Positions 1 to 24,848 of a stretch of 34,327 bases of DNA are shown in pieces (the stretch's first letter is position 1; each line of letters starts with the position of its first letter). Under the pieces are notes generated by a model. The model was not told where the DNA came from. It made no database searches and saw only the letters and a program-made list of their open reading frames with translations. The translations under genes and the position numbers were made by a program. This DNA comes from a virus, in IMG/VR virus record IMGVR_UViG_3300018080_008403, positions 1 through 34,327 of that record. One strand, 5' to 3'.

Positions 1-627
1 CTACTGCACGCCGAAGTACCGGGCGTCCGGGTGGTAGGTGATAAGAGCGCTGGTCGATTGCTCCGGATGGAGCTGGTATTCCGCGGACAGCGCGATGCCG
101 ATGCGCTCGGCCTCGAGCAGCTTCATGAGCTGGACCTGGTCGGCGAGGTTGGGGCAGGCGGGGTAGCCGAAGCTAAAGCGGGCGCCTTGATAGCCCTGCT
201 TGAAGAGCTTCTTGAGGTCGCGCGCGTCCTGGCCGGCGACGCCCAGCTCGATACGGACCTGCTTGTGGACGTACTCGGCCAGCGCCTCGGCGGCCTCGGC
301 GCCCAACCCGTGCAGCATCAGGTACTGCAGATACTTGTTGTCGTCGAACCACTGCCGGGCCACCTCGCTGACCTTGCTGCCGACGGTGACGATCGACAAC
401 GCGACCACGTCCGGGACGCCGGCCTCCAGCGGCCGCCAGAAGTCTGCCAGGCACCAGTACGGAGCCTTGTGCTGGCGCGGGAACGTGAAGCGAGCGATCT
501 CGCGGCCGTGATGCTCCGGGCGTTTGATGGTTCCGGTGGGCGGCTCGAAGATGATCAGGTCGTCGCCCCTGGAGTTCGCCGGCCAGTATCCGTGGACTGC
601 ACAGGAAAAAATGGCCGAATTGTCCAT
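1..627 (-). pseudogene. metH: 3' fragment of metH (activation domain of B12-dependent methionine synthase), cut by the prophage
   Basis: The 208-residue frame matches the C-terminal S-adenosylmethionine-binding activation domain of MetH, which supports reductive remethylation of cob(II)alamin. Visible signatures are HGYWPANSRGDDLIIF near residue 12, LADFWRP near 60, the MetH motif R150 to GYPACP (154-159), and the closing block EYQLHPEQSTSALITYHPDARYF. Only about 200 residues are present. The helical start of this domain and the homocysteine, folate and cobalamin domains of a normal ~1,200-residue MetH are missing. Family similarity begins at about residue 10; residues 1-9 are encoded by sequence assigned to the prophage end. 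The ATG at 627 is therefore probably accidental. The stop codon is at bases 1-3. A stand-alone activation-domain gene is the alternative, but such a protein should keep the missing helical segment. The identification is strong; the disruption is inferred from the abrupt loss of homology. Confidence 0.8.
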
Positions 628-730
628 TGAGGGAAACGCGGGTTAAGTGGTGTTGTGGCCGAGAGTTAGGTGGGAATCAACGGTGCGCGGAAATATGGCC
701 ACGCAAGCGCGCACGGCCGGAATTCGGCCA
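598..730. mobile_element. Left end of the prophage with candidate transposase-binding repeats
   Basis: MetH homology ends at base 597 and a TG dinucleotide, the usual terminus of Mu-type elements, follows at 598. TGCACAGGAAAAAATGGCC (598-616) recurs as TGCGCGGAAATATGGCC (684-700). A 10-bp core TGGCCGAATT (612-621) recurs inverted at 721-730. Multiple related subterminal sites are typical of MuA-type transposase ends. The 5 bp just outside, TGGAC (593-597), would be the target duplication. From 731 to 944 I see no gene, only the TGTAAC cluster listed separately. Confidence 0.6.
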
Positions 731-944: not shown

Positions 945-1646
945 TCACGAGGCGGCCTGGTGGGCTGCTTGGCGCATGCGGCAGCGGGCGGTCTTGGCGA
1001 AGTCGGGGTCGAGCTCGATGCCGATGAAGCGGCGGCCGATCTGCAGGCACGCCACGCCAGTGGAACCGCTGCCGGCGGTCGGGTCGAGCACGAGCTGGTT
1101 GGGTCGGGTGACCTTCTCGACCAGGGGTCGCAGCAGGCGCACGGGCTTCTGCGTCGGGTGCACGAGTTCGCGTGGGGAGACCTTCGGACAGCGGAGCACC
1201 GAGCGGGGGCGGCCGTTGGGGAAGGCGAAGCGGCCCTTGGTCGCGAACCAGATCACGTCGTGCTGAGGCGCGAAGGTTGAAGCGCAATCGCCGGCGCCAT
1301 GATACTCGCGGTCCCAGATGACCTGCGAGCGGACGTGCAGACCGGCGTGGGTGATGGCGTCCTTGAAGACGTCCTGCACATCGCCGCGACAGAAGCACAG
1401 CAACACACCGCCGTCGGCCAGGATCCGCTGGGCGTCGAAGAGCCACCAGTGAAACGGGCGCGCATCGTTGGCCAGGAGGTTGAAGCGCCGGGAGTGCTTG
1501 GACTGATACGAGATCCCGTAAGGGGGATCGCCGATCACCGCGTGGACGCGCCCGTCGGGGAGCTTGCGCAGCTCGGTGAGGCAGTCGCCGTTGATGAGCG
1601 TCCATCGTCGCCGACCTGAGAGGACCTGGCTGACTCTTCGTTTCAA
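945..1646 (-). CDS. Beta-class DNA methyltransferase (N6-adenine or N4-cytosine)
   Basis: The 233-residue protein transfers a methyl group from S-adenosylmethionine to an exocyclic amino group in DNA. It shows catalytic motif IV as DPPY at residues 40-43, then HPTQKP at about 163-168, then the AdoMet-binding motif I DPTAGSGST at about 188-196, followed by GIELD. The order IV before I defines the beta class. It is the last gene of the leftward operon. The start is a TTG at 1646 directly behind a GGGAGG purine run, closer than usual, but the conserved core begins only about 15 residues in, so no later start fits well. No restriction endonuclease is adjacent, so a solitary phage enzyme protecting against host restriction or marking phage DNA is likely. 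Target sequence and adenine/cytosine choice cannot be read from the protein. Confidence 0.88.
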   Translation of the reverse strand: MKRRVSQVLSGRRRWTLINGDCLTELRKLPDGRVHAVIGDPPYGISYQSKHSRRFNLLANDARPFHWWLFDAQRILADGGVLLCFCRGDVQDVFKDAITHAGLHVRSQVIWDREYHGAGDCASTFAPQHDVIWFATKGRFAFPNGRPRSVLRCPKVSPRELVHPTQKPVRLLRPLVEKVTRPNQLVLDPTAGSGSTGVACLQIGRRFIGIELDPDFAKTARCRMRQAAHQAAS

Positions 1647-1670: not shown

Positions 1671-2192
1671 CTATGATGTCCGTATCGAATCTGGCCGGCG
1701 TGTAAAGACCGCTGGTGTTGTGGCACCAGCGGCGTTCCGGGTAGACTGAACCTCCCCGGCGCGCCGGTCTTCTGCAATGAGCTTGGCCAGTTCGTCGCGG
1801 GCCCAGTCGGTTATGGTGAGGATCTCGTAGCGGACCACGTAGAGTGAGCCGCCGGAGTTGCGCCAGCGATCGAAGGCCGGGAACGTGCAGTCTCCCCAGA
1901 TCTGCTGACGGGCCGACTTGGGCAAGGCTTCCGGGTGCTCGTGCAGCCAAGCGAAGCCCTCGGCCTCGTAATCGCTGCTGGGCATTGAACTAAGCGGCTC
2001 GTAGAGCGCATCCTGCGTCAGCCGGCCGGTACCGATCGGGCGACCACCGAAACGGGGCGAGCGGTTGTAGGCGACGAACTCGGTCCCGCGCTTCCAGAGC
2101 GCCGCATAGGCCGGCGACCAGTCGCGGCGCGTGGCGGTCTTCACCAGTGCGACGAACGCAGCCCAGGTCCAGCCGAACGAGAGGATCATCAT
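1671..2192 (-). CDS. ASCH-domain-like protein, function unknown
   Basis: This 173-residue protein begins MMILSFGWTWAAFVALVKTATRRDW and continues with a strand-rich segment (GTEFVAYNRSPRFGG, YVVRYEIL). The pattern resembles ASCH/PUA-like folds, where an N-terminal SF...TRR segment lines a nucleic-acid-binding pocket. The assignment is by eye and moderate. The ATG at 2192 overlaps the stop of the deaminase gene upstream in the operon as ATGA, which supports this start and suggests translational coupling. It sits between a dCMP deaminase and a DNA methyltransferase, so a role linked to modified nucleotides or nucleic acid is plausible but not shown. The C-terminus (about residues 140-173) is polar and looks disordered. 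Confidence 0.6.
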   Translation of the reverse strand: MMILSFGWTWAAFVALVKTATRRDWSPAYAALWKRGTEFVAYNRSPRFGGRPIGTGRLTQDALYEPLSSMPSSDYEAEGFAWLHEHPEALPKSARQQIWGDCTFPAFDRWRNSGGSLYVVRYEILTITDWARDELAKLIAEDRRAGEVQSTRNAAGATTPAVFTRRPDSIRTS

Positions 2193-2716
2193 GTCTCCAC
2201 CTTCACGCCCAGGAGTTCGATCGCGGTGATGAGCGGGACGAGCGGAGGGTTCTTGTAGTGCACGAGCTCGATGTGGTGATCGCGGGCCAGCAGGGCCACG
2301 CCGGCCTGCTCGTCACTGTCGACCGAGTCGGACGAGAGGTTGCCGTAGACCACGCGCACCAGGCCGGCCTGGATGATCGTCAGCATACAACGCGTGCACG
2401 GGCAACCCGTGACGTAGATCGTGCCGCCCTCCGGACGGTGCGAACAGTTCAGGATCGCGTTGAGCTCTGCGTGCACCATGTACGGGTACTTGTCCGGCCG
2501 CGTCATCGGATACCGCGACTCGTCGCCGCCACGCGGCAGGCCGTCGTACCCCTGGCCCAGGATGCGGTGGTCACGATCGACGATGACGGCGCCGTGCTTG
2601 GTCTCGGGATCGTGCGAGCGCGTGGCGCCCAACACCGCCAACGCGCTGAGGTAGCTGTCCCAGTTGGGGCGGTCGGCGATTGACGATTGGGGATTGACGA
2701 TTGGAGATTGGCTCAT
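2189..2716 (-). CDS. dCMP deaminase family protein (zinc-dependent)
   Basis: The 175-residue protein belongs to the cytidine/deoxycytidylate deaminase fold. The zinc site is H82 in HAE (82-84), with E84 as proton shuttle, and C107/C110 in PCTRC. Family members convert dCMP to dUMP and feed dTMP synthesis; phages often carry them to adjust the nucleotide pool. The first ~15 residues (SPIVNPQSSIADR) are encoded by the GATTGAC-type repeat at 2678-2711, so the native N-terminus may have been lengthened or replaced; the conserved core starts at about NWDSYL (residue 18). The start ATG at 2716 overlaps the stop of the XRE-HNH gene as ATGA, and its own stop overlaps the next start in the same way. 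Confidence 0.88.
   Translation of the reverse strand: MSQSPIVNPQSSIADRPNWDSYLSALAVLGATRSHDPETKHGAVIVDRDHRILGQGYDGLPRGGDESRYPMTRPDKYPYMVHAELNAILNCSHRPEGGTIYVTGCPCTRCMLTIIQAGLVRVVYGNLSSDSVDSDEQAGVALLARDHHIELVHYKNPPLVPLITAIELLGVKVET
2678..2711. repeat. GATTGAC-type heptamer repeat array
   Basis: Degenerate tandem copies of GATTGAC ending in GATTGG. The array lies inside the 5' end of the dCMP deaminase gene and encodes part of its N-terminus. Confidence 0.85.
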
Positions 2717-3495
2717 GCGGGCTCCTTTCTGCGCCGAAAATCCTTGAGCTGCCGGTACTCAATCCAGCGTCGGCGGCTACCAAGAGATGCGCGCCGTTTG
2801 CGTTTGGTCTCCATGTTCGGGCGGATAGATCGCTGCCAGGCGAGCTGCTGCTGGCGCGTCATAAGGATTAGGTTATACAGCTCGTCGTTCAGTGTGTTGC
2901 CATCGGCGTGGACGACGAACATGCCCGGCGGGATGGGGCCGTGTTTGTGCTCGTAGCGATAGCGAGCAAGTGGAATGTAAGCTTCTACGCCCGGTCCGTG
3001 CGGGCGTATTTTGATCCAGCGTCGTTTCGAGCCGTGGCCGTGGTCGCGGCGAATAGTGACACTTCCAACAGGCCGGAGCTTGCGCGCCGCGGCCCCACCA
3101 ACGTGGCCGGGTTTGAACTCGGTAGCGGGCGATTGGTGGATGCCCTTGAGACCCTTACACCATGGGACGTGGCCCTTCGCGAAGCGAGGGCCGATCGTGT
3201 GGCCCGGTTTGAATCCGTTTTGCTTGAGCATCGCCCAATACTGCGGAGAGCCCCAGCGCAGCGGCGCTGCCGCCCGCCTCAACTCCTCTAGCCGGCGAGC
3301 GTCTTTTTCACTGAGATCCAGCGAGGCGATCAGGCGGCGACGGGTGGCCGCGCGCGGAACGTGTTCGCCACGCTCGATCAGGCCGATGTAACTGCTGCTT
3401 ACACAGACATCGCGGCCGAGCGTCGCCTGTGACATGCCACTGCGGCGTCGGGCGCGTCTGATCAACTGGCCGAGCTGGCGCGCCGGGTTTCTCAT
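2713..3495 (-). CDS. XRE-type helix-turn-helix fused to an HNH endonuclease-like domain
   Basis: Residues ~5-60 form a Cro/CI-type helix-turn-helix (LGQLIRRARRRSGMSQATLGRDVCVSSSYIGLIERGEHVP). Residues ~95-150 hold short GFKPGHTIGP / FAKGHVPWCKG / FKPGHVGG elements like the DNA-binding repeats of free-standing HNH homing endonucleases. Residues ~185-215 (GPIPPGMFVVHADGNTLNDELYNLILMT) match the HNH_3 core. The segment after LMT reads RQQQ where the family usually has the last metal-ligand histidine, so catalysis is doubtful. The 260-residue protein could be a homing endonuclease that recognises its site through the XRE head, or a DNA-binding protein derived from one. It overlaps the genes on both sides by 4 bp and so is integrated in the early operon. 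The domain calls are good; the activity is unknown. Confidence 0.75.
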   Translation of the reverse strand: MRNPARQLGQLIRRARRRSGMSQATLGRDVCVSSSYIGLIERGEHVPRAATRRRLIASLDLSEKDARRLEELRRAAAPLRWGSPQYWAMLKQNGFKPGHTIGPRFAKGHVPWCKGLKGIHQSPATEFKPGHVGGAAARKLRPVGSVTIRRDHGHGSKRRWIKIRPHGPGVEAYIPLARYRYEHKHGPIPPGMFVVHADGNTLNDELYNLILMTRQQQLAWQRSIRPNMETKRKRRASLGSRRRWIEYRQLKDFRRRKEPA

Positions 3496-5706: not shown

Positions 5707-5811
5707 TTACGTTCTCCACCAGGCGGTCCAAAAGAGCAGGAGGCCGGTCAGCCAGTCGAGGATGGCCAGGGCCCAGATCACCAGGCCGAGCTTCGTGTCT
5801 TCACCGATCAT
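5707..5811 (-). CDS. 34-residue single-span membrane peptide
   Basis: This short gene encodes MIGEDTKLGLVIWALAILDW followed by LTGLLLFWTAWWRT: an acidic head and one long hydrophobic helix rich in Leu and Trp, ending Arg-Thr. ATG 5811 is preceded by GGAGGG at ideal spacing and overlaps the stop of the GemA-like gene as ATGA, the same coupling used elsewhere in the operon. That is the main evidence that it is real. A small early membrane peptide could act in superinfection exclusion or modulate a host membrane protein. No homologue is recognised. Confidence 0.65.
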   Translation of the reverse strand: MIGEDTKLGLVIWALAILDWLTGLLLFWTAWWRT

Positions 5812-6290
5812 CCGGTTTCCCTCCGTCGGTTCGTGGCTTCGTGGCTTCGTCGCTGCGCTTTGGCCAGGATGTTGTCGAGCGCGTCGAGGATGTCGCTGGC
5901 CTGGCCGCTCTGAAGGCCCTCGACATACGGGTGCGCGATGCCGTAGCGGCGCTGGAGCCAGCCGGCGCACTTCGCGCTCGACCAGCCGCACTCCTGATGC
6001 AACTGCTTGAGCTTGGCCCAGATCGCTTTGCGCTGCTGCTGGCTGGCATCGGCGTAGGGTGTGTTCACCAGGCGCGGCGTGCCGTGGCGCTCTTCGAGCT
6101 GGTCCATGAAATGCGCGGCCTGGGCGCGCGTCAGATCCTTGAGGCTGGCCACGCCGGCGGCGTCGCGCAAACGTTCGTGATCGAGGCCGAGCTGGCGGCC
6201 GATGGCGTGGAGCCGGCGCAGTTGGGGCGTGGTGACGGAGTCACCCTTCGTCACTGCGTTACTTCGTCTCTTCGTCACGGCCGTTGTCAC
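5808..6290 (-). CDS. GemA-like phage regulatory protein (Mu gp16, DUF1018)
   Basis: The 160-residue protein carries the DUF1018 pattern: an N-terminal helical pair (LRRLHAIGRQLGLDHERLRD, LKDLTRAQAAHFMDQL) and a C-terminal half (QQQRKAIWAKLKQLHQECGW, CAGWLQRRYGIAHPYVEGLQSGQASDILDAL). In Mu this family (GemA) affects host gene expression and DNA topology. The start is GTG 6290, overlapping the upstream stop as GTGA, with AGGTGAG at good spacing. The first 16 residues, VTTAVTKRRSNAVTKG, come from the octamer part of a 102-bp duplicated sequence and are identical to the start of an unrelated protein at 7573, so they are not part of the ancestral domain. An internal GTG at 6278 or 6254 could also be used. 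Confidence 0.75.
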   Translation of the reverse strand: MTTAVTKRRSNAVTKGDSVTTPQLRRLHAIGRQLGLDHERLRDAAGVASLKDLTRAQAAHFMDQLEERHGTPRLVNTPYADASQQQRKAIWAKLKQLHQECGWSSAKCAGWLQRRYGIAHPYVEGLQSGQASDILDALDNILAKAQRRSHEATNRRRETG

Positions 6291-7573: not shown

Positions 7574-7625
7574 GTTCTCATCTTGCTAGGTTGGCAGGCC
7601 GGGGCCTGCCCTACATCTGGGCGGT
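7524..7625. repeat. 102-bp duplicated leader cassette, copy B
   Basis: Matches 6241-6342 with two differences by my reading. It begins at the stop codon of the MuB-like gene and ends in the coding start of the Cys-rich protein, so it forms the entire junction between them. Confidence 0.9.
7593..7614. repeat. GGCAGGCC/GGCCTGCC palindromic repeat, copy 3
   Basis: Lies 10 bp downstream of the MuB-like stop and 19 nt upstream of the GTG start at 7573. Confidence 0.9.
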
Positions 7626-8821
7626 TAGGCCGTTTTCGTGAGCAGCTCGCCGCCGGCCTGCTCGTCGATCACGATCGCGACCGACTTCCCGAAGGTCATC
7701 TCCAGCGCCTCTTGCAGGACGTCGACATCGATCGGCTTGGCGAGCTTCGGGGCGCCGCCGGGCGGAAGGCTGATGTCGATCGCGAGCTTGAGGACGTCGA
7801 GCGCGAAGCCCAGCCGGCCGTAGCCGACCACGTTCGCCAGGTCGCGCAGCCAACGCGTGGCCCGCGGCGTGAGGATGCGGACACGCTCGTTCTGGACGAT
7901 CTTGACGATATCGTCGACGGTGTAGAGGCCGCCGTCGTCGTCGAGCGCGCACTCGGCATCGAGATCGAGCACGGGCTTGAGCCGGCGGGCGAGCTGCGGC
8001 TCGATCACGGTCCGCTCGTCGGCGCGGCTGGCCTCGATCAACTTCTTGAAGCGGTGGTCGCCGAACAGGACGATCGGGATCCCGCGGCGGCCGGAGACGT
8101 CGGAGATGTCGTGAATGTCGCGGAGCATCTCCAGACCGGCCTTGTTGAGCTTCTGGGCCTCGTCGACCACGATCACGGTCGAGCCGTGCTTGCGGAGCCA
8201 GGCCTTGATCTCGAGCAGCCGCTTGCGGTGCGGCTGGTTGATCTGCTGGCGCAGCGGGTCGATCGCGGTGCAGAGCAGGATCGTGACGCCGCGGTCGTCG
8301 CGGTGGGCCTCGTCGGGCCGGATGACGACCACGCCGCCGCGGTCGGCCGCGAAGGCCCGGGCGTGGGCGGTCTTGCCGACGCCGGGCGAGCCGATGATCA
8401 CGGGCATCCAGTTGCGCCGGATGCCGGTGCGGATCGTGCCGAAGATCTTCCCGGTCATGCCGATCTGCGCGTGCGAGCGAAACTCGAAGCGCCCGCGCTT
8501 CTCGCGCTCGTCGGCCAGGAACTGGTCGATCTTGCGGAGCACCGCGTCACGGTTGCCCTTGTACTTGTCGTAGCGGATGTCGTGCAGCGTCGACGGCGGC
8601 AGGCCGATCATCTCGGCCAGGCGTTGCCAGCTCAGCGGCTTGCGGCCACTGAGCGGGTTGTCGTCGCGATACGCCTTGAGATCGTCGACGATCTGCCGCC
8701 GGAGCTCCGGCGTGATCTCCTGGTCTTCCTTGACCATTCTGTAATCCACCCTTCCCTGCTGACGCAGGGCTTCGAAGCCGTGCCCGTCCGTGGGCGGTTG
8801 GGAAGTTGAATCGGTGGTCAT
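7625..8821 (-). CDS. MuB-like AAA+ ATPase, transposition target-selection protein
   Basis: The 398-residue protein has an N-terminal helix-turn-helix (about 64-82, SWQRLAEMIGLPPSTLHDI), Walker A GSPGVGKT at 144-151 and Walker B VIVVDEAQ at 216-223. It ends with helical segments like the C-terminal domain of MuB/TniB ATPases. In Mu, MuB forms ATP-dependent filaments on DNA, delivers target DNA to MuA, stimulates strand transfer and protects the phage from self-insertion. MuB is 312 residues; the extra length is mainly N-terminal. The start ATG 8821 overlaps the transposase stop as ATGA, the standard A-B coupling. A long open frame upstream of this start is only a shadow of the transposase gene. 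Confidence 0.92.
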   Translation of the reverse strand: MTTDSTSQPPTDGHGFEALRQQGRVDYRMVKEDQEITPELRRQIVDDLKAYRDDNPLSGRKPLSWQRLAEMIGLPPSTLHDIRYDKYKGNRDAVLRKIDQFLADEREKRGRFEFRSHAQIGMTGKIFGTIRTGIRRNWMPVIIGSPGVGKTAHARAFAADRGGVVVIRPDEAHRDDRGVTILLCTAIDPLRQQINQPHRKRLLEIKAWLRKHGSTVIVVDEAQKLNKAGLEMLRDIHDISDVSGRRGIPIVLFGDHRFKKLIEASRADERTVIEPQLARRLKPVLDLDAECALDDDGGLYTVDDIVKIVQNERVRILTPRATRWLRDLANVVGYGRLGFALDVLKLAIDISLPPGGAPKLAKPIDVDVLQEALEMTFGKSVAIVIDEQAGGELLTKTA

Positions 8822-10956
8822 CCCGCCGCCTCCGTTTCGTAGTTGAGCCGCTCCCAGCCGGTGATGGGGCGCTGCTCGGTGTGCTGCTGCTCGTCGTACT
8901 CGGCCAGCGCCGCGAGCTTGTCGAAGCCGCTGCGACGGGGTTTCGAGGGGCGCTCGACGGCCTGTCGAACGACGGTCTTCTGCTCCTGCCGATGGAGCCG
9001 GGCCGCGGCAGCGGCCAGGTCCGGCCGGACGATGGTGACTGCCGGCGGCTCGGGCGCGGGGAGCTGCTTGCGCTGCTCGGCCTCGCGGGCCTGGGCGTGC
9101 CGACGCTTGGCCTGGAGGATCTGGGCGGTGGGCGTCTCGCGGAGATAGTCGCGGGCCTGGGCCGCTTCCCGGTGCACACGGCGATAACGGGCCTGGAGAC
9201 GGGCGGCCTCGCGGCGATCGTCCTGGGAGGCGCCGCCGAGCTGGCGGTTGTGGGCGTAGCAGATCGGCGCGCCGTCGGAGTCGCACACGGTGACGCGGTC
9301 GGCCCGTTCGGGTTCGATCGTCAGGTAGTAGCGATCGTCCTTGAGACGCCAGACTTCTTCGTCCCACCGGCCGTAGAGGATGTGCTTCCAGCGGAAGCCG
9401 TCGCGGCCGCGCTTGACCGGGCCGACCGTGCGCGTCGAGAGCTGAGCGACGACGTCCAGATCGACGCGGCGAATCGGGGCGCGGTATTGCTCCATAACGA
9501 GGTTGGGACACAGGCCGCGGGTGCCTTTGCCGCTCTGCGCGGTGGCGTGATACTCGCCGAGCCAGATTGGCAGCCACTCGCGCACGTCGTCCTCGGTGGG
9601 CAGGTCGTCGATGCGGCGTTTGATCTCGCGCTCGTGGCCTTCGGGCCGCTCGGCCGGCGAGCCGCCGCACCATGACCAGAGCCAGCGGTCGAAGTCCTCC
9701 TTGAGCTTGTCCCAGATCGACTCGAGCGGCTTGGCCCAGCCGTGGTAGGGGATGCTGCTGTGCAACGTGACGCCGAGCTTGGCGAAGACGCTGCCGATGC
9801 GCGGATCGGCCATGTACTTCTTCTGCCAGCCGGAGCCGCGGCGCGAGCCGAGTGCGGCTTTGTACGCCTCGCCGTTGTCGGCGATCACGTGCTCCGGCGC
9901 GCCCCAGTCACGTAGGGCCTGCTGGATGCCGGCCAGGATGCCGTCGCTGTACTCGGTGCTGCGCACGTCGAGGCGCAGTGAGCGGCTGCGCATATCGAGC
10001 ACGCCGGTGACCACCAGACGGGCCGGACGCCACTCGCGCCGGGCGTCGGGCACCCGACACTTGAAGTCGAGGGTGCGGCCGTCCAGGCACCACCACTCGC
10101 CGGCGAGCATGCTCTCGAAGTCGCGTTCGCACTTGGGGACGCAGTCGGCCTCGAAGCGCTTGGGGCCGCGGCGGGCCAGCGTCAGCGTGGACGGATGCAG
10201 CTCGTCCTTAACGCGCTGGCGGATGGTCGATTCGGACGGCCAGACCCAGCCATGTTGGGCGGCCTCGCCTTGGACGAAGCGCCAGCACTTGGTCAGCTTG
10301 AGGCCGTTGCTCTGCAGGTAGAGCGAACGGAACAGCTCCCAGGCTTCCGGGGTGCAAGCCCCCCTACCGCGCTTCGCGCGACGTCGGCGGACGTTGCCGT
10401 CGAAGTCGGCGCCGGAGTTGGGATCGAGGCGGCGGCGGATGCGCCGGAGCGTGCGGAGCGAGAGGTGCTTGAAGCCCAGCCGGGCGACGTCGTCGGCGTG
10501 GCGGGCTATGAACAGCGCGAACGACTCGCTGGCAGGCAGATGGCCTGCCCTACATTGCTTGGTCGCTTCCCACAGTGTGAGCAGCTCGTGCGAGTTCAGG
10601 AAACGCTCGCGGTCTCGATCGCTCCAGCGCTGATGACCGGGCGGTAACGTGAAGCCGACGAGCTGCTCGACGCGGCCGACGTTGAGGTAGGACTCGACTG
10701 TCAGCCCATCGGGCAGGCGCGCCTCGAGCGAAACCTCGCGTCGGCCGGCGAGCTTGCGGGCCTGGCCGCGGGCGGTCAGCGCGAGCGCCCAGCGGTGCGC
10801 CGACTGGCGGCGGGCGCTCAGCGTTGGGCCGGGGAACGCCGCGACCAGGTCGGTCAGCGGGACAAAACCGGGCGAGGACGCGGCCGGCATACGGGCCGCG
10901 CCCTGCCCAGCGGAGGGGAAAGAAGCCGTCGGGCTGTGAGCCGGTTCGGCACTCAC
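8818..10956 (-). CDS. MuA-like DDE transposase
   Basis: The 712-residue protein carries the RNase H-like DDE core of Mu-type transposases. Candidate catalytic residues are D292 (WCLDGRTLDF), D360 (HVIADNGEAY) and E412 (GWAKPLESIWD), with spacings close to those in MuA; the AKP-E motif is typical. A beta-barrel/Mu-transposase C domain follows (about 490-590), then a basic helical tail that would contact MuB. N-terminal regions (30-90 and 150-260) should bind the element ends. The start is GTG 10956 with AGGGGA upstream and a GTGA overlap with the preceding 36-codon gene; ATG 10890 is an alternative. Residues ~134-143 (QCRAGHLPAS) are encoded by an inserted palindromic repeat, in frame. The enzyme catalyses strand transfer for integration and replicative transposition. 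Confidence 0.95.
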   Translation of the reverse strand: MSAEPAHSPTASFPSAGQGAARMPAASSPGFVPLTDLVAAFPGPTLSARRQSAHRWALALTARGQARKLAGRREVSLEARLPDGLTVESYLNVGRVEQLVGFTLPPGHQRWSDRDRERFLNSHELLTLWEATKQCRAGHLPASESFALFIARHADDVARLGFKHLSLRTLRRIRRRLDPNSGADFDGNVRRRRAKRGRGACTPEAWELFRSLYLQSNGLKLTKCWRFVQGEAAQHGWVWPSESTIRQRVKDELHPSTLTLARRGPKRFEADCVPKCERDFESMLAGEWWCLDGRTLDFKCRVPDARREWRPARLVVTGVLDMRSRSLRLDVRSTEYSDGILAGIQQALRDWGAPEHVIADNGEAYKAALGSRRGSGWQKKYMADPRIGSVFAKLGVTLHSSIPYHGWAKPLESIWDKLKEDFDRWLWSWCGGSPAERPEGHEREIKRRIDDLPTEDDVREWLPIWLGEYHATAQSGKGTRGLCPNLVMEQYRAPIRRVDLDVVAQLSTRTVGPVKRGRDGFRWKHILYGRWDEEVWRLKDDRYYLTIEPERADRVTVCDSDGAPICYAHNRQLGGASQDDRREAARLQARYRRVHREAAQARDYLRETPTAQILQAKRRHAQAREAEQRKQLPAPEPPAVTIVRPDLAAAAARLHRQEQKTVVRQAVERPSKPRRSGFDKLAALAEYDEQQHTEQRPITGWERLNYETEAAG
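10531..10553. repeat. GGCAGGC/GCCTGCC palindromic repeat inside the transposase gene, copy 4
   Basis: GGCAGGCAGATGGCCTGCCC plus TAC matches the family seen in intergenic positions. It sits in frame in the N-terminal DNA-binding part of the transposase, far from the DDE residues. Confidence 0.85.
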
Positions 10957-11063
10957 GATTTCCCCTGTATGAAGATCAGGAATGGCGCGACGGTGGCCTT
11001 GTTGTACAGGGGGTACACATCCAGGTTTCGAGCGAGTGGGATGGACGAGGTCCGCCGCGCCAT
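10953..11063 (-). CDS. 36-residue conserved-context small ORF
   Basis: ATG 11063 begins MARRTSSIPLARNLDVYPLY and continues NKATVAPFLIFIQGKS. It starts 10 bp after the stop of the upstream 132-residue gene, has AGGA at acceptable spacing, and ends in a GTGA overlap with the transposase start. This placement, rather than any homology, is the case for translation: it would couple translation into the transposase gene. The C-terminal half is moderately hydrophobic. It could also be a leader peptide with no function of its own. Confidence 0.5.
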   Translation of the reverse strand: MARRTSSIPLARNLDVYPLYNKATVAPFLIFIQGKS

Positions 11064-11072
11064 GATGACGTC

Positions 11073-11471
11073 CTATTTCTTGCCGCGGGCGCCGACGATG
11101 CGGATCCGCGGGCTGCCCTGGCGGTTGGTCGCGATCAGCTCGAAGGCCTCCTGGCCGAGTGCGGCCTTGGCGCGCTTGGCATCGACGGTGTGCTTGACCG
11201 CGTCGGTGAAGACCGCCGGGGCGATGTCGCGCGCCAGGCACGCGTCGCGAAAGGCTTCGAACGTGATGATGGTGCTGGTCGGCCGGCTGAGCAGGGCGCG
11301 ATGCTCGGGCGTCAGATTGAGGGCCTTGAGGCCCGCGGCCTGCATAAGCTTGATGCACTCGGCGTGGACGGCCTGCTCGTCCTTCCGGGTCTCGTCGATT
11401 ACCTGGCGGATCGCGGCCAGGCGCGTTAGCTGCTTGACCAAGTGGTCATGACTCACGAGTGTGCTAGACAT
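11073..11471 (-). CDS. Hypothetical early protein upstream of the transposase
   Basis: The 132-residue protein starts MSSTLVSHDHLVKQLTRLAA, is helical at its N-terminus (IRQVIDETRKDEQAVHAECIKLMQAAGLKAL) and continues LTPEHRALLSRPTSTIITFEAFRDACLARDIAPAVFTDAVKHTVDAKRAKAALGQEAF before a basic end. I do not recognise a family. ATG 11471 has GGAGG upstream at good spacing and overlaps the end of the upstream frame by 8 bp. Position directly before the transposase suggests an accessory early function; a Gam-like or Ner-like role is possible by position only. Confidence 0.75.
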   Translation of the reverse strand: MSSTLVSHDHLVKQLTRLAAIRQVIDETRKDEQAVHAECIKLMQAAGLKALNLTPEHRALLSRPTSTIITFEAFRDACLARDIAPAVFTDAVKHTVDAKRAKAALGQEAFELIATNRQGSPRIRIVGARGKK

Positions 11472-16036: not shown

Positions 16037-16279
16037 GTGAATGAACGCGGACGGCAACTGGTGGAACTGGAGCGCGAGCTGAAGCGGTGCGTCGGGGACG
16101 CTGAGCGACACCGCGCGCAACTGATCGCGCTGAGCAGCTTTGACGATGCCCCGGCACTGAGTCGGCTGGACGAGGTCGAGATCTCGACCGCGTGGTCGTC
16201 GCTGATGCTCTGTCGCAAGCGGGCAGTCGAACTGCTCGAAGACAGGAAACGGCTGCTGGCAGCCGGGGCTGGCGATTGA
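16037..16279 (+). CDS. Small helical hypothetical protein
   Basis: The 80-residue protein MNERGRQLVELERELKRCVG continues DAERHRAQLIALSSFDDAPALSRLDEVEISTAWSSLMLCRKRAVELLEDRKRLL. It is charged and helical and probably a coiled-coil pair. It lies between the coiled-coil membrane protein and the candidate small terminase. No family is recognised. An AAGGTGA repeat-derived sequence (GTGACAAGGTGACAAGGTG) ends at the start codon. Confidence 0.6.
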   Translation: MNERGRQLVELERELKRCVGDAERHRAQLIALSSFDDAPALSRLDEVEISTAWSSLMLCRKRAVELLEDRKRLLAAGAGD

Positions 16280-16294
16280 CGAGGTCCGAGGTGG

Positions 16295-16789
16295 ATGAGC
16301 GCGGGACGACCAGACTGGACGACGAAGGTTCCCAGCGAGGAGCTGCAGGCGATCCACGAGTGGATCGACGACGAGGCGAACTACAAGTCGATCGACATCT
16401 ACCGCCAGTTGAAACTGGGGCGCTACACGCGTCCGCGGAGCTTCCGCCGGTACGTGGAGAAGCGGAGAGAAAGCTCACGCGAGCGCGTCGAATCGGGTAC
16501 CACACCGCCCTCGTCGTTCTCGCGGGACTCGCTGGAGGAGCTGACGCGCGCGGCGATCGGCAAGGCGCTGCTGACGGAGACGCTGCCGGCGTACCGGCTG
16601 CACAGTGTGCTGAGCGTGATCCAGCGCAGCAAGATCGCCGAGGTCCGGCAGCAGGCGGAGCAGCGCGCCCAGGAGCTGCACGACCTGAAGATGAAGGCCG
16701 CGGCCGAGCAACTCGACGAGATGGAGACATCCAACGAGCTCACGCCCGAACAGGTGGTCGAGATCAAGCGGAAGGTGCTGGGGCTGTGA
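16295..16789 (+). CDS. Candidate small terminase subunit (Mu gp27/DUF3486-like by position)
   Basis: The 164-residue protein begins SAGRPDWTTKVPSEELQAIHEWIDDEANYKSIDIYRQLKLGRYTRPRSFRRYVEKRR, which looks like a DNA-binding helical head in which a short loop (YTRPRSFRRYV) could contact DNA. A long helix follows (about 80-150), as in the gp27 proteins of Mu-like phages. It ends with a GTGA overlap with the large terminase gene. Such subunits recognise phage DNA and regulate packaging. Sequence similarity to DUF3486 is weak by eye, so the call rests mainly on place and shape. Confidence 0.6.
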   Translation: MSAGRPDWTTKVPSEELQAIHEWIDDEANYKSIDIYRQLKLGRYTRPRSFRRYVEKRRESSRERVESGTTPPSSFSRDSLEELTRAAIGKALLTETLPAYRLHSVLSVIQRSKIAEVRQQAEQRAQELHDLKMKAAAEQLDEMETSNELTPEQVVEIKRKVLGL

Positions 16790-18168
16790 GGAAAGCGACG
16801 AAGCGACGGAGCGACGGAGCGACGAAGGGGAAAGGCCGAAACGCGCTTAAGAGAGGACCACGCAAATCGGGGGCGGCCGGGACGCCGGCCGCCCCCCGCG
16901 CGTCGGTCTTGACGCCGCGGCCGTACCAGAAGCGGGTGATCCTTCTTCCCGACCGGCTCATGGCGCTGATGTGGTCGCGCCAGACCGGGAAGGGTTTTAC
17001 TGCCGCCTCGATCGTCAACGTCGATATCCTCGACGCCGAGGCGCAGCGGCAACGAACCGAATGGGTGTTGACCAACCGCTCACAGCTCCAGAGCCGCCAG
17101 CTCGCGCGCAAGGTGCACGACCAGGCCGAGGCCGTGGTGCGTGCCCGAAAGATGCTGCAGGGCCCCAACGTCAACGACCTAAGCGGCGGCAACTTCGAGA
17201 TCGTCTATCCCGGCGACAGCCGGGTCTGGGTGTTGAGCGGACACCCGGACGCGGCGGCCAGCTTCACGGCGAATCTGGTCGCCGATGAGATCGACCTGAA
17301 CCCGTGGTGGTCGGAGCTGCTCGGCACGGCACTGCCGGTGGCATCGACCAACAATCTGCGTGCACTGCTTACCAGCACGCCGCGCGGCAAGCGCGCGATG
17401 TACCAGGTGTCACAGGATGCGAAGAAGGACGGCTCGCCCTGGTACTTCGAGAAGCTGACCATCTACGAGGCGGTCGCGCAGGGTTGCCCGCAAGATCCGG
17501 CCTTCCTGCGGCGGGCCATCCTGAACGAGGTGCGCTGGCGTCAGGAGTACTTGTGCGAGTTCGTCGACGAGGACACCGTCTGGCTCAACTGGGATCTGCT
17601 GGTGGCGTGCGGTGATCCGGAGGCCACGGTCGAACCGGCGCCGTTTGACGGGCCGGTCTACGGCGGGTGGGACATCGCGCGCTATCACCACCTGAGCGTA
17701 TGCTGGATCGCCGGTCAGGTCGGCACGGTGCTGAGGCCGCTCGGGTTGCTCGTGATGCGCAACGTGAAGTTCGAGGCGCAGATCGAGCGGGTCTCGCAGG
17801 TGCTGTCGCGTTATCCGGCGTTTACGCGGTTGTGCATGGACGAGACCGGGATGGGGGAGATGCCGACCGAGGTCATGAAGCGTCGGTGGGGCGGCTATCG
17901 GGTCGAGGGCGTCAAGTTCAACACGATCAAACCGTTACTGGCTGGCGACCTCCGCTATGCGATGGAGGAACGCAACTTCCTGATCTTCGACGACGACGAA
18001 GTACGCAACGATCTGCACAGCATCCAGCAGACGTTCACCGCCGGGAACAAGCCACGCTTCGAGGGCGAGGCCGCCGGCTCGCACGCGGACCGGTTCTGGG
18101 CGGCCGCGCTGTGCAAGCACGCGGCCCGGCCGGCGGCCGGCGGGTGGATCGCCAGAACCACGTGCTAA
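16786..18168 (+). CDS. Terminase large subunit (Mu gp28-like)
   Basis: The 460-residue packaging motor and nuclease has a variant Walker A SRQTGKGF (64-71), Walker B LVADEID (about 164-170), a coupling motif LLTSTPRGK (about 195-203), and a RNase H-like nuclease with D296 (GGWDIARYHH), D352 (CMDETGMGE) and D435 (HADRFWAA). RQTGK and STPRGK are typical of the Mu-like branch, which packages by a headful process from host-integrated DNA. The start is GTG 16786, in a GTGA overlap; the first 18 residues (VRKATKRRSDGATKGKGR) are encoded by an octamer array and share the tag seen on early proteins. The conserved domain begins near residue 40. Confidence 0.92.
   Translation: MRKATKRRSDGATKGKGRNALKRGPRKSGAAGTPAAPRASVLTPRPYQKRVILLPDRLMALMWSRQTGKGFTAASIVNVDILDAEAQRQRTEWVLTNRSQLQSRQLARKVHDQAEAVVRARKMLQGPNVNDLSGGNFEIVYPGDSRVWVLSGHPDAAASFTANLVADEIDLNPWWSELLGTALPVASTNNLRALLTSTPRGKRAMYQVSQDAKKDGSPWYFEKLTIYEAVAQGCPQDPAFLRRAILNEVRWRQEYLCEFVDEDTVWLNWDLLVACGDPEATVEPAPFDGPVYGGWDIARYHHLSVCWIAGQVGTVLRPLGLLVMRNVKFEAQIERVSQVLSRYPAFTRLCMDETGMGEMPTEVMKRRWGGYRVEGVKFNTIKPLLAGDLRYAMEERNFLIFDDDEVRNDLHSIQQTFTAGNKPRFEGEAAGSHADRFWAAALCKHAARPAAGGWIARTTC
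16795..16828. repeat. CGACGGAG octamer array inside the terminase 5' end
   Basis: Encodes the basic N-terminal tag of the large terminase. Confidence 0.9.
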
Positions 18169-18248: not shown

Positions 18249-19730
18249 TTGTGGCGGCGGGTGACCGCGGCGGCGACGGGATTGTTCCGCGCATCCTCGA
18301 CGCTGAGCTGGAGCCAGATCGTCACGCGGCTGTTCGGCTATGTCAGCAGTGATGACGTTACGCGGCCGATGGCGCAGAACACCTGGGTCTACGTGGCGGT
18401 GAGCGCCAACGCGCGCGGCGTGGCCGGGCTGAACTGGAAGCTGGTGCGGACCGACAACGAGGACCAGGAGATCACCAGCGGGCGCGCGTTCGAGCTGCTC
18501 AGCCGACCGGCCCGCGACGCGACCATGGAAGACCTGGTCGAGGAGTTCGTCGGGCACCTGTGCGAGGGCGGTGAAGCGCACGTGTTCGACGGCGACGCCG
18601 AGAGCCTCCGCAGCGGATCGGTCGTGCCGAAAGAGTTGATGGTGGTCGGCCGGCGCCAGATGACGCCCAAGTTCGCCGAGCGCACCGGCGAGCTGCTGTG
18701 GTGGGACTACACGCCGATGCGCGGCGACTGGAAGCGCGTGCCGATCCTGCCCGAGCAGCACGCGTACATGCGGCTGTTCAACCCCTACGACGCGTACCGT
18801 GGGCTGAGCCCGCTGGAGGCCGCGAAGCTCGGCATCCAGCAGGACTACCGCGCCGCGCAGTTCAACGACGCGGCGCTGGCGAACAACGGCTCGCCCGGCG
18901 GGCTGATCGTGTTCCCCGAGCGGGTCGATAAGAAGGAGGGCGAGGAGTACCTCAAAGCCTGGGAGGATCAATTGGGGGGGGCGCCCAACGCGCGGCGCAC
19001 ACGCGTGATCGGCGGCGGGGTGGACTACAAGCAGATGGCGATGAACAACGTCGACCTGGCGTTGTACGAGGGGCGGAAGTTCAACCGCGAGGAGATCTTC
19101 GCGGCGATCGGTACGCCGCCGGTGGTGTGCTTCGTGTTCGACTCCGCGCACTACCAGATCGGCGACGCGGCCCAGGAGGTCTGGATCCACGGGACGATCG
19201 GGCCGCTGGCCAAGAAGACGATGGGGCTGTTCAACATACTCCTGCTGCCGCGGATCGAGCCGGGCGTGAAGCTGGTGATCGACGTCAACAGCCACCACGT
19301 GATCCAGAAGCTCGAGCAGGGTAAGCTGGAGACGTTCAACAAGGCGTTGCGCAGCGGCGTGCCGTACAACGAGGCGAAAAACCTGCTGAACCTGCGGCTG
19401 GACGATCAGCCCTGGGGTGGGCAGAGCTTCCTGGAGTCGGGGCTCGCAACGCCGGAGCAGATCATCGAGGGCTGGGCGGGCTGGCGCCGATCGAGCGGGA
19501 GGAGGAAGAGGAGGAGGCCGAAGAGAGGGAGGGGCGGAGTGACGAAGGGGAAGGCGAGGAAGGTTCGGGGTTCGGGGTTCAGAGCTCAGAGATCGCGGCG
19601 ACGATCGCCAGCGAGAAGCGGGCCGAGGACGCGCAGATCCGTAAACAGGTGCCGCGTATTCGGCAGCGGTTCCGGGCACACTTCCTGCGACAGGAGCGGG
19701 AGATTCAGCGGCGGCTACGCCGCGCTGTAG
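18249..19730 (+). CDS. Portal protein, HK97 family
   Basis: The 493-residue frame matches HK97-type portals: MAQNTWVYVAVSANARGVAGL near the start, then IQQDYRAAQFNDAALANNGSPGG, NREEIFAAIGTPPVVCF, and a closing region LRSGVPYNEAKNLLNLRLDDQPW. Portals form the dodecameric DNA channel at one capsid vertex. Family similarity ends near residue 410. The remaining ~80 residues (RRSSGRRKRRRPKRGRGGVTKGK) are Arg-rich and look like a wrong-frame reading of a Glu-rich segment in the -1 frame that runs into the MuF-like gene. The start is uncertain (TTG 18249, or GTG 18261), with AAGGCGG upstream. I infer that the natural portal ends near 19500, or that a -1 shift joins it to the MuF protein. Confidence 0.88.
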   Translation: MWRRVTAAATGLFRASSTLSWSQIVTRLFGYVSSDDVTRPMAQNTWVYVAVSANARGVAGLNWKLVRTDNEDQEITSGRAFELLSRPARDATMEDLVEEFVGHLCEGGEAHVFDGDAESLRSGSVVPKELMVVGRRQMTPKFAERTGELLWWDYTPMRGDWKRVPILPEQHAYMRLFNPYDAYRGLSPLEAAKLGIQQDYRAAQFNDAALANNGSPGGLIVFPERVDKKEGEEYLKAWEDQLGGAPNARRTRVIGGGVDYKQMAMNNVDLALYEGRKFNREEIFAAIGTPPVVCFVFDSAHYQIGDAAQEVWIHGTIGPLAKKTMGLFNILLLPRIEPGVKLVIDVNSHHVIQKLEQGKLETFNKALRSGVPYNEAKNLLNLRLDDQPWGGQSFLESGLATPEQIIEGWAGWRRSSGRRKRRRPKRGRGGVTKGKARKVRGSGFRAQRSRRRSPARSGPRTRRSVNRCRVFGSGSGHTSCDRSGRFSGGYAAL

Positions 19731-20506
19731 GCAACCAGGCAACCAGGCAGCCAGGCAACGAGCTGCGCCCGTGGGAGCGGGCGGACGGAGAGGCGGAGCG
19801 GATCGCGAAACGTGTGCTGCTGCGACTCACCAGCGAGCAGGCCAAGCTGCGGAAGATGTTCAGCGAGTACTTCCCGCGCGCGGTCGAGCGGACGCTGCGG
19901 GCCGAGCTCAAGCGGCTGGGACTCTCGCCGTCGGCGGTCGAGGGGGCGGTCCAGAAGCTCAAAACCGGCAAGTACATCCAGGCGCTGATGCGGGCCAAGG
20001 CGCCCAAGGTGGCCAACGTCGAACGCACCACACGCGGTCGGCTGCAACGCACGCTGGTCGAGGGGATCGGCAAGGGCGAAACCGTCGGCGAGCTGTCGAG
20101 CCGCGTGCATGGCGTGCTGGGAGGCGACCGGGCGCGGGCGCTGCGGATCGCGCGGACCGAGGCCGGGGAGGCGGTGAGCACGGCACGCTTCGTCGCGGCC
20201 TCCGCCGCGGGCGCCAAGATGAAGGGGTGGATCACCGGTCGCAACCCGCGGCTGACCCACCTGAAGGCCGGCCGCGACTATCACCCACGCACTAACCCGA
20301 TCGCGATGGAGGAGCGGTTCAAGGTCGGCCGCGACCGGCTGATGTTCCCGCGTGATCCGGCCGGCAGCGCGGGCGAGATCATCAACTGCAACTGCGTGAT
20401 GGTGACCCTGCGGGCGAAGAAGGACCGTGAGGGCGCGACCGTCGTGCAGATAGTCAACGCGATCGGTGCCGGCTACGACGTGGTGCCATTGAGGAGAGCA
20501 GCGTGA
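19649..20506 (+). CDS. MuF-like head morphogenesis (minor head) protein
   Basis: The 285-residue frame has the MuF/SPP1 gp7 arrangement: N-terminal helices (AERIAKRVLLRLTSEQAKLRKMF), a central RTEAGEAVSTARF segment, and a C-terminal Cys-containing block FPRDPAGSAGEIINCNCVMV. These proteins enter the procapsid with the portal and may be ejected with DNA. The first start codon in frame is GTG 19649, with no ribosome-binding site and already inside the helical region. The frame is open back to 19325 with an acidic stretch (EREEEEEEAEEREG) at about 19500, but without any ATG, GTG or TTG. The true N-terminus is therefore unresolved; coupling to or fusion with the portal by a -1 shift is likely. 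It ends in a GTGA overlap with the protease gene. Confidence 0.85.
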   Translation: MPRIRQRFRAHFLRQEREIQRRLRRAVGNQATRQPGNELRPWERADGEAERIAKRVLLRLTSEQAKLRKMFSEYFPRAVERTLRAELKRLGLSPSAVEGAVQKLKTGKYIQALMRAKAPKVANVERTTRGRLQRTLVEGIGKGETVGELSSRVHGVLGGDRARALRIARTEAGEAVSTARFVAASAAGAKMKGWITGRNPRLTHLKAGRDYHPRTNPIAMEERFKVGRDRLMFPRDPAGSAGEIINCNCVMVTLRAKKDREGATVVQIVNAIGAGYDVVPLRRAA

Positions 20507-21480
20507 ACGACGAGGACAAAAAGCGACGCGCCGAGATTGAGGCGCAGCCGTGCCGGGCGGCGATCGACTTCACGATCGAGACGGCCGAGACGGTCGACGG
20601 CGAGCGGCGGATCCGCGGGTACGCCAACACGTTCGGCGTGATGCGCTCCGGGCGGATCATCCACCCCCAGGCAGTCGAGGACTGGCTGGCGGCGAACGCC
20701 GATGCGCGCCTGCCGTTGTTGGCACTGCACGGTTTCGTGGGCGGGTTCGCCACGATCGGCCTGGTCGAGAAGCTGAAGGTGCAGCGGAGCAAAGGCCTGT
20801 ACTTCGAGGCCACGGTTGCGAGCGGGCTGGAGCTGGCCGACCAGGCCTGGCAACTGGTGAGCCAGAAGATGCTGAGCAGCCTGAGCCTGGGGTGGGCCGC
20901 GAAGCAGCGGCGCTGGGTGCGCGCGGACGACAAGGACCTCGATCCGTGGTTTGCCAAGAAGTTGAAGGAGGCCGGGGTTACGGAGGCGTTGGCGTTCATC
21001 GACGTGGAGATCGTCGAGATCTCGCTGGTGGACGTGGGGGACGACCGCGGGGCCCAGCTGGCGGCGAGTGTGCGAGCCGAGCTGTCAGCGGTCAGCGATC
21101 AGCTCTCAGCTCTGAAGGAAGAGCTGGGCGGCCAGCTCCACCGGCTGGAAGCCGGTGCCACACCTGAACCCCGAACCCCGAACCCTGAACCCTTGATCGA
21201 AGCCGCCGTGAACGCGGCTCGAAAGGCGGTCGAGGGGATGATGACGGACTTCGCGCACGGCCTGGACGAGCGGCTGTGCGAGGTGATCGAAGCCAAGCTG
21301 GCGGACCTGCAGGCCGCGTATCTCGACGACGACTTCGGTGACGGTGCGGACGACGCCGAGAACCCGGACGAGACGGACGGTGATGCAGCAGCGCCGAGCG
21401 AGGCAGCCCGCGAGAGCGGGGCGTCCGCGGAATTACTCGAACGGATTCGGAGCCTGCCGGTGCCGGGGCAAGCGAGCTGA
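20503..21480 (+). CDS. Prohead protease, HK97 family, fused to a scaffold-like tail
   Basis: Residues ~18-190 match the U35 prohead protease: RIRGYANTFGVM, the catalytic His in LLALHGF (about H76) and the catalytic Ser in MLSSLSLGW (about S128), followed by VEIVEISLVDVG. The C-terminal third is helical and acidic, with a repeat-encoded patch (PEPRTPNPEPL at about 222-232, from GAACCCC-type heptamers) and an end rich in Glu and Asp, as in fused scaffolding domains. The enzyme would process the scaffold and capsid N-terminus during maturation. The start GTG 20503 overlaps the MuF stop. The total of 325 residues is longer than the HK97 enzyme (about 225), which supports the fusion. Confidence 0.88.
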   Translation: MNDEDKKRRAEIEAQPCRAAIDFTIETAETVDGERRIRGYANTFGVMRSGRIIHPQAVEDWLAANADARLPLLALHGFVGGFATIGLVEKLKVQRSKGLYFEATVASGLELADQAWQLVSQKMLSSLSLGWAAKQRRWVRADDKDLDPWFAKKLKEAGVTEALAFIDVEIVEISLVDVGDDRGAQLAASVRAELSAVSDQLSALKEELGGQLHRLEAGATPEPRTPNPEPLIEAAVNAARKAVEGMMTDFAHGLDERLCEVIEAKLADLQAAYLDDDFGDGADDAENPDETDGDAAAPSEAARESGASAELLERIRSLPVPGQAS

Positions 21481-21518
21481 GCCGGCGGGTGAGATCCCCA
21501 CAACGAAGGGAGCCAAGG

Positions 21519-22796
21519 ATGGCTAAGACGGAAACGGCGCCGGGCACCAAGCCCGACGCGATCAAGACGCCGCAGGAGGTGCAGGTCGAGCAGCTCGTGG
21601 CCGAGCTGGCCGGCAAGCTGGAATCCATCGGCGCGTCTTACAACGACCTGGACGCCAAGTACCAGGCGCAGTTCAAAGGGCAGGCCGACGAGATCGCGAA
21701 GCTCTCGAACAGCATGGAAAAGGTGCAGGCCGACGCGATCAAACGCTTCCACGCGATCGCGGGGCACTACCAGCGCGGCGGCGACTACCGCGGGCCGTTC
21801 GCCGACCGCGAGCAGGCCGCTCAGTTCGGGCGCATGGTCGCGGCGATCATGCAACATGACCACGCGGCGCTGAAGGCGGAGTATGACAAGGCCGCGATCA
21901 GCCTGACCAAGGGCCCCGAGGGCGGCTATTTGATGCCGGAGCTGCTGCTCGCGGGAATCATCCGCAACGTGGAAGAGGCGGGCGTGTTCGAGCGGAACTG
22001 CCCGGCGATCCCGGTCAGCGTGATGAGCGGCGGCGGCGCCAGGCGGACCGGCGGGCTGACGGTGTACTACCCGGACTTCGGCGTGGCCGGCACGGCCAGC
22101 ACGCCGACCGTCGGGGACACGCGTTTCGCCCTGAAGCGCTTCGTGGTCGGCACCGAGGTCGACAACTGGATGCTGGCGAGCGACCTGGCGGTCGCGCTGG
22201 GCGACTGGGTCGCGACCGAGATCAGCTACGGGCTGATGCTGGCCGCGGACAGCGATTGGTTCGTCGGCGACGGCACCAGCGGGTACTGCGGCTATACCGG
22301 TCTGTTCAAGCGGACCGACCTGCTGAGCGTGGGTGGCGATTCGGGCGACGACACGTTCGCCGAGATGATCGCCAAGAGCACCTACTACCTCGGCACCGTG
22401 CTGGGCACGGCGCCGCTGTGGGTGCACAACTCCTCACCGAAGTGGTTCATGCACCTGCTGATCTTCTTCCAATATCTGGGCGTGCGCGACACGGCCGGCC
22501 AGCCGATCGCGAACGTGATGCAGGCCCAGACTGGGCTGCCGTTCTACCTGATGGGCTACCCGGTCGAGCCGGTGCAGGTGGCGCCGAGCGCGACTGACGT
22601 CAGCACGGTGTTCACGCTGTTCGGCGCGCTCACGCGGGCCTGCCGGGTGTACCGGCACTCCAAGGCGGTCGAGCTCAAGAGCAGCGACCAGCTCAAGTTC
22701 TGGGAGGCGCAGACCGTATTCGCGGCCGACGTCCCGCAAGACATGACGGTCGTGGACGGCAACGGCGTCGTGCAGCTCAAGACGGCTGCTTCGTAG
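21519..22796 (+). CDS. Major capsid protein, HK97 fold
   Basis: The 425-residue protein has a helical N-terminal delta-like region (about 12-75, VQVEQLVAELAGKLESIGASYNDLD) followed by the HK97-like body: LTKGPEGGYLMPELLLAGIIRNVEEAGVF, FVVGTEVDNWMLASDLAV, YGLMLAADSDWFVGDGT and a late FLMGYPVE-like YLMGYPVEPV block, then FTLFGALTRACRVYRHSKAVEL. It forms the icosahedral shell; the N-terminal region is probably removed by the protease encoded upstream. ATG 21519 has AAGGGAG upstream. It sits between protease and connector genes in the standard order. Confidence 0.93.
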   Translation: MAKTETAPGTKPDAIKTPQEVQVEQLVAELAGKLESIGASYNDLDAKYQAQFKGQADEIAKLSNSMEKVQADAIKRFHAIAGHYQRGGDYRGPFADREQAAQFGRMVAAIMQHDHAALKAEYDKAAISLTKGPEGGYLMPELLLAGIIRNVEEAGVFERNCPAIPVSVMSGGGARRTGGLTVYYPDFGVAGTASTPTVGDTRFALKRFVVGTEVDNWMLASDLAVALGDWVATEISYGLMLAADSDWFVGDGTSGYCGYTGLFKRTDLLSVGGDSGDDTFAEMIAKSTYYLGTVLGTAPLWVHNSSPKWFMHLLIFFQYLGVRDTAGQPIANVMQAQTGLPFYLMGYPVEPVQVAPSATDVSTVFTLFGALTRACRVYRHSKAVELKSSDQLKFWEAQTVFAADVPQDMTVVDGNGVVQLKTAAS

Positions 22797-23178: not shown

Positions 23179-23583
23179 ATGCGAAGACTCGCGGAAGACA
23201 CAAGGGTCGTCCTGAACATCGTGCCGGTCGACCGCACCAGCGCTGGGGCGGTCAACGGTGCGGGCGTTGCGAGGGGCGACGACGACGCCGTGATGGCGCA
23301 CTGCCCGACCGGGGCGATCGAGACTGCGTGCGCGGCCGACTACAAGCTGCAGGACTCGGACGACGACTCGACGTACACCGACATCGCCGGCGCGGCGGCC
23401 GTGCAGCTCGGGGCGAGCGACGACGACAAGTGCCCGACGATCGACGCGCGGCTGACCAAGAAGTACGTCCGCGCCGTGCACACCGTGACCGGCACGGCCG
23501 GCGTATGCGGCGGCGTGGTGCTGCAGTTCTACCGGGCCAAGGCGCTGCCGGTGACGAACGATCCGGCGTCGGTAGTCGTCTAG
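23179..23583 (+). CDS. Head-associated protein, function unknown
   Basis: The 134-residue protein is probably beta-rich: a pattern RVVLNIVPVDRTSAG...YKLQDSDDDSTYTDIAGAAAVQLGASDDDK...RYVRAVHTVTGT recalls small phage proteins annotated as head or decoration proteins that carry paired sandwich strands. Two acidic DDD clusters stand out. AGAGGAG precedes ATG 23179. Position after the capsid gene favours a head decoration or head-fibre role. This is inference. Confidence 0.7.
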   Translation: MRRLAEDTRVVLNIVPVDRTSAGAVNGAGVARGDDDAVMAHCPTGAIETACAADYKLQDSDDDSTYTDIAGAAAVQLGASDDDKCPTIDARLTKKYVRAVHTVTGTAGVCGGVVLQFYRAKALPVTNDPASVVV

Positions 23584-24839: not shown

Positions 24840-24848
24840 CTGAAAGCT

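Follow-up and report, generated by a model that had tools for sequence, protein, structure and literature searches.

The window described here is a stretch of 34,327 bases, identical in extent to the metagenomic virus record IMGVR_UViG_3300018080_008403 (G000), and it comprises two dissimilar parts (Table 1). The first part is the 3' end of a bacterial metH gene, encoding the B12-dependent methionine synthase MetH, and the second, which begins with TG at position 598, is a phage genome with a Mu-type gene set. The record opens on the metH stop codon and closes on TGA, and a provirus that had been cut back to the limits of its outermost genes would be expected to show such edges. The original prediction of a prophage inside metH was borne out by the metH fragment, by the sharp break between positions 597 and 598, by the Mu-type genes and by the full-length metH of relatives. 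We consider it very probable that a temperate Mu-type transposable phage is integrated in the activation-domain part of metH in a Phycisphaerae bacterium related to the genome G001.

The fragment contains the activation domain of MetH from the VHGYWPAN block onward, including the RxxxGY motif (present as RFSFGYPACP). It matches profile positions ~59-258 of 273 in the Pfam family Met_synt_B12 (PF02965; E-value = 6.6e-44) and positions 981-1182 of 1182 in TIGR02082, and the first ~58 positions of the PF02965 domain, together with everything upstream of them, are absent. In comparison with full-length MetH (8G3H and 1MSK), the entire fragment aligns to the activation domain of the Thermus (8ssc, 8ssd and 8g3h) and Escherichia coli (1msk) enzymes, and only the C-terminal ~two thirds of that domain are retained on the window side of the phage. 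A tblastn search of the window with the full G001 MetH gave a sole match at 600-13 (84% identity over 196 amino acids, MetH residues 982-1177), and the Hcy, folate and cobalamin modules were not found in the window by this search. So, the remainder of the gene is missing on this side, as had been predicted. The nearest metH relatives are all from Phycisphaerae: the gene of G001 (L002) is 84% identical at the amino-acid level and 82% at the DNA level, and the next three are 77%, 74% and 74% identical in amino acids. Between the fragment and G001 metH, dN is 0.098 and dS is 0.75, and the frame is interrupted by neither a stop codon nor a frameshift. The low dN and the intact frame suggest that metH was under purifying selection until recently, and thus that the insertion took place recently in comparison with the divergence from G001.

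A total of 80 homologous loci were compared, of which 14 reach a contig edge; the remaining 66 have a closed frame, and all of these continue for 961-1532 codons upstream. Because at least 961 upstream codons exist in 66 of the 66 closed loci, the fragment is the cut-off end of an ordinary metH gene. This result bears on the idea that the 200-codon unit is a genuine stand-alone activation-domain gene, which would lie beside the phage or be carried by it as a helper. Activators of this kind do exist: G001 has one that resembles Thermotoga 1J6R (TM0269), short PF02965 matches of the same kind were found in 8 of the 12 relatives searched (G001 and 7 of the 11 others), and an in-frame ATG is kept at position 627 of the window. 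The true stand-alone proteins, however, match only positions ~118-254 of the profile and are far more divergent, whereas the domain in the window is truncated at profile position ~59, and its first residues derive from the phage end sequence. The stand-alone reading, which in prophage-free relatives would have spoken against the original prediction, was rejected because every closed relative encodes full-length MetH, and we regard it as extremely unlikely.

In a side-by-side alignment, the 11 Planctomycetota relatives read on upstream of the A-V/I-H/Y-G-Y-W-P motif, whereas the window turns unrelated between positions 597 and 598, where its plus strand reads TGCACAGG. The foreign sequence on the plus strand from 598 is TGCACAGGAAAAAATGGCC (its start is also given as TGCACAGGAAAAAATGG), and chance is a negligible explanation for so sharp a loss of homology. 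Nearly all of the relatives compared use GCC or GCG for the conserved Ala that precedes the Val, and the window has GCA; since the phage TGC (GCA) preserves this codon, the cut can be placed only within ~3 bases (597-600). A TG at 598 as the phage end agrees with the Mu rule, and the break confirms the expectation that the MetH domain is recognizable to about VHGYWPAN and halts at a TG. The terminus in the window bears GGAAAAAATGGCC, and CGGAAATATGGCC sits 85 bases further in. The likeness of these end repeats was equalled in 3% of shuffles, and they probably represent transposase-binding sites. The A-tract and TGG motif of the terminus is also found just inside the ends of a related prophage in the genome G132 and, in a weaker form, in one in G006.

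To locate the ends of these related prophages, TG...CA pairs were sought that combine a direct repeat of 5 bp with inverted similarity of the termini, and they were compared with 30 shuffles. The G006 prophage (G006:C89 11586-47627; L124, L125 and L143) is complete and 36.0 kb long, with the repeat GACAG and the termini TGTGCGGTGACACAAAACATG and TGTTGCGCGACATTAAACATG. This pair of ends is supported by repeat sites: just inside the right end are two 20-mers that are almost the same (0 and 1 mismatch), with a weaker third copy, and the left terminus carries a motif of the GTGACA...AAAACATG type, as at the right end. The G132 prophage (G132:C2 604774-644556, located at 30775-70557 of an 80-kb stretch; L130-L132) is 39.8 kb long, with the repeat CCAAC; its termini are identical at 18 of 24 positions, the 30 shuffles peaking at 17, and GAAAACTGGA sites are repeated inside both ends. 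Both prophages appear to have TG...CA ends with 5-bp target duplications, as expected for Mu-type transposition. The former is apparently inserted between genes and the latter within repetitive host DNA. In two further genomes, G156 and G210, the end searches yielded no candidate better than those in shuffled sequence, and a portal search within the order of G001 matched only G006 and, weakly, G156.

Several points weigh against an insertion in metH. The right junction is outside the record, and the 5' half of metH and a second TGGAC would lie beyond its edge. The termini of the G006 prophage are identical at 17 of 24 positions, a value reached by 3 of the 30 shuffles, and this pair alone is within chance. 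Viral contigs yielded no relatives when they were scanned with the MetH fragment, MuA, the portal protein and the exact patterns of the left and right ends; no second copy of the phage, and hence no second insertion site, was found there. Finally, misassembly is formally possible, since only the left junction is in the record. On that side, the insertion is well supported, with a mechanism as for Mu.

A misassembly would mean that the assembler joined the end of a Phycisphaerae metH to an unrelated phage contig, and the record covers only one side of the insertion. The phage, however, has five arrays of GATTG-type heptamers (2678-2710, 3892-3925, 6544-6579, 11575-11628 and 11822-11848), and a count of the exact 21-mer (GATTGAC)3 in 298 Phycisphaerae genomes gave 23 copies in G001, one to three copies in each of four others and none in the remaining 293. 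The heptamer abundance and the nearest metH point independently to the lineage of G001, which argues against a chimeric contig, and the break coincides with the TG end and the terminal repeat sites, as in the related prophages. We therefore hold a chimera to be quite unlikely. The GATTGAC-type heptamers, a lineage-specific repeat common to phage and host, are mostly located at gene junctions of the leftward operon, and one frame through them reads NRQSSIV.

The flank could also be host DNA packaged in a virion, with no stable lysogen, as the virions of Mu-like phages contain variable host DNA at both ends, 31-150 bp on the left and as much as 2 kb on the right (PMC5977238, PMC4378225). Such virion flanks are heterogeneous, however, and an assembly would seldom produce from them one flank of 597 bp or more. 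In addition, the metH stop codon forms the exact start of the record, as in a trimmed provirus, and more host DNA probably lies beyond; packaging is a very unlikely source of the flank.

The gene for a MuB-type AAA ATPase is located directly downstream of that for MuA (Table 1). On the basis of PF09039 and of homology to proteins annotated as transposase A, the MuA of the window is assigned, as a probable member, to the MuA-family DDE transposases. Among 50,697 phage records it has distant matches only (~21-26% identity), several of them annotated as transposase A, including those of Sinorhizobium phage StopSmel and Bacillus phage BalMu-1. MuA relatives exist in 30 of 347 Phycisphaerae genomes (E-value <= 1e-20; best identity 38%), and transposable phages are thus frequent residents of this group; the MuB is 61% identical to that of one genome, G274. 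In short, the phage is of a known kind, although its lineage lies far from those of the phages described so far.

Table 1. Features of the window, with the evidence for each.
Feature	Position	Strand	Evidence
Host metH, 3' fragment (last ~198 codons with stop)	1..597	-	PF02965, G001 identity, intact frame
Five bases next to the TG end, inferred from position	593..597		5-bp duplications in two related prophages
Phage terminus 5'-TGCACAGGAAAAAATGGCCGAAT, probably the terminal site bound by the transposase	598..620	+	homology break; A-tract and TGG motif
Second probable end site CGGAAATATGGCCACG	688..703	+	repeat of terminal motif
Inverted copy of TGGCCGAATT (10/10) in end region	721..730	-	sequence match
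DNA methyltransferase (N6_N4_Mtase), at the end of the leftward operon	945..1646	-	PF01555, E 4e-30
dCMP deaminase	2189..2716	-	phrog_174, E 3.7e-36
Helix-turn-helix (HTH) and HNH endonuclease protein	2713..3495	-	PF13560, PF13392
DUF5131 phage protein	3853..4760	-	PF07505, E 1.5e-53
GemA (Mu gp16-like)	5808..6290	-	PF06252, E 1.7e-9
MuB-like transposition ATPase	7625..8824	-	phrog_296 DNA transposition protein, E 2.3e-25; AAA_22
MuA-like transposase	8818..11100	-	PF09039 Mu I-gamma subdomain, E 2.1e-8
Terminase large subunit (domain from ~16800)	16192..18168	+	phrog_5909, E 1.7e-33; PF17289
Portal protein	18249..19730	+	phrog_2662, E 2.1e-44
MuF-like head morphogenesis protein	19649..20506	+	phrog_2468, E 2.5e-30
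Head maturation protease	20503..21480	+	phrog_80, E 7.1e-16
Major capsid protein	21489..22796	+	phrog_10, E 7.7e-12
Head-tail adaptor	23571..24203	+	phrog_442, E 6.9e-20
Tail-region genes, mostly without family match	24237..34327	+	synteny with G006 prophage, 24237 to ~31900
LamG-fold protein in tail region	31917-32624	+	among tail-region genes

Mu-type chemistry, with its 5-bp stagger, CA ends and insertion mutations, is standard, and Mu was named after such insertions (PMC3562280). The position of the window phage inside a host gene recalls the original Mu mutator phenotype (PMC3562280) and is normal behavior for such phages, seen here in a group of hosts that has received little study. With the Mu-like phages, or saltoviruses (Mu, D3112, B3, BalMu-1 and StopSmel), the phage shares a MuA-type transposase with the Mu I-gamma domain, a MuB-type ATPase and GemA, and probable TG...CA ends with a 5-bp duplication are seen here in two related prophages. 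It differs from them in the low identity of its MuA, in its head genes, which match HK97-type portal, MuF and protease families, and in its Phycisphaerae host. This situation is also different from that of SfMu, in which 51 of 55 open reading frames (ORFs) run rightward (PMC4406740), whereas the transposase genes of the window, 7-10 kb from the phage end, run toward that end and diverge from the structural genes.

The leftward early and rightward structural layout recurs in the G006 prophage, of which the portal (42%), MuF (45%), capsid (34%) and adaptor (38%) proteins resemble those of the window, and a row of tail proteins is syntenic. However, MuA and MuB are only 27% and 23% identical, respectively, the G006 prophage is apparently inserted between genes and not within one, and its homologue of the window ORF 33112-33909 is inverted at the early-gene end (15406-16041, minus strand). 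By eye, the homologue of window positions 33887-34327 is likewise inverted in G006, as of a module swapped between the phage ends. Among described phages, BcepMu has a divergent layout.

If the phage inserted in the manner of Mu, the MuA-like transposase and MuB-like ATPase would have joined its 5'-TG...CA-3' ends to the metH strands, 5 bases apart, at about the Val-His codons (GTCCA on the sense strand, TGGAC on the plus strand), and host repair would have left a 5-bp duplication. The gene would thereby be split: its promoter-proximal part, which encodes the homocysteine, folate, cap and cobalamin modules, would lie across the phage from the final ~198 codons that are seen in the window. In the G001 MetH (1179 amino acids), Pfam places the Hcy module at 1-286, folate at 321-557, cap at 618-690 and B12 at 702-795, the activation-domain match starts from 967, and RxxxGY is at residue 1122, whereas the cut corresponds to residue ~981. 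All of the catalytic modules precede the cut, and so they would be kept together on the promoter-proximal fragment, severed from the S-adenosylmethionine (AdoMet) site. The statement in the original prediction that insertion removes the catalytic domains is thus true of the fragment on this side, but not of the gene as a whole, where the modules end at ~795.

The function predicted to be lost is the AdoMet site, and hence the reactivation of oxidized cobalamin. AdoMet chemistry in the activation domain rescues MetH from the Co(II) state (PMC10567725); the residual MetH would be able in principle to turn over, but unable to bind AdoMet, and cobalamin oxidized to Co(II) would no longer be reductively remethylated. 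If this is true, MetH activity in the lysogen would be lost under oxygen unless another activator or methionine synthase substitutes for it. The window would then offer a concrete case of a phage in the gene of a central B12-dependent enzyme, expected to part catalysis from reactivation.

It is possible that the lysogen depends on another methionine synthase, as had also been suggested. No match to MetE was found in 11 of the 12 relatives searched, and the twelfth gave a partial match. G001 has an operon (L145 2778-6684, G001:C84) for an MttB/MtgB-like methyltransferase, the stand-alone activator, an MtgC-like corrinoid protein and a homocysteine S-methyltransferase, which may be a second, folate-independent methionine synthase, and which is similar to the methionine synthase that marine bacteria have in split form (PMC12478193). 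That such an operon could provide methionine or a trans activator in the host of the window phage is a conjecture.

The severed fragment had been proposed to come under the leftward phage operon. It does run in the same direction, but ~350 nucleotides separate the cut from the last phage gene (the methylase, which ends at 945), and no consensus promoter or terminator was recognized in 560-1700. By eye, no Shine-Dalgarno sequence accompanies the in-frame ATG near 627. In Pseudomonas Mu-like phages, outward transcription from the prophage ends has been proposed (PMC4378225), so that transcription of the fragment is conceivable. A functional product from it is unlikely, however, because the domain lacks about its first 100 residues, the match to 1MSK beginning only at residue 102. 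Very little probability is given to a working two-piece MetH, in which the native promoter would drive the 5' part, and a 208-residue C-terminal part, started at the phage ATG (627) under the leftward operon, would reactivate it in trans and so tie MetH reactivation to the state of the prophage.

Elsewhere in the phage, the transposase and terminase genes are separated by a region (11.5-16.8 kb) with octamer tandem repeats (GAGTGACG, GACGAAGT and AAGCGACG at 13320-13376, 15154-15192 and 16793-16827, respectively), and most of the ORFs there look non-coding. In the early operon, the ORF at 2713-3495 joins an N-terminal HTH and an HNH endonuclease in one frame.
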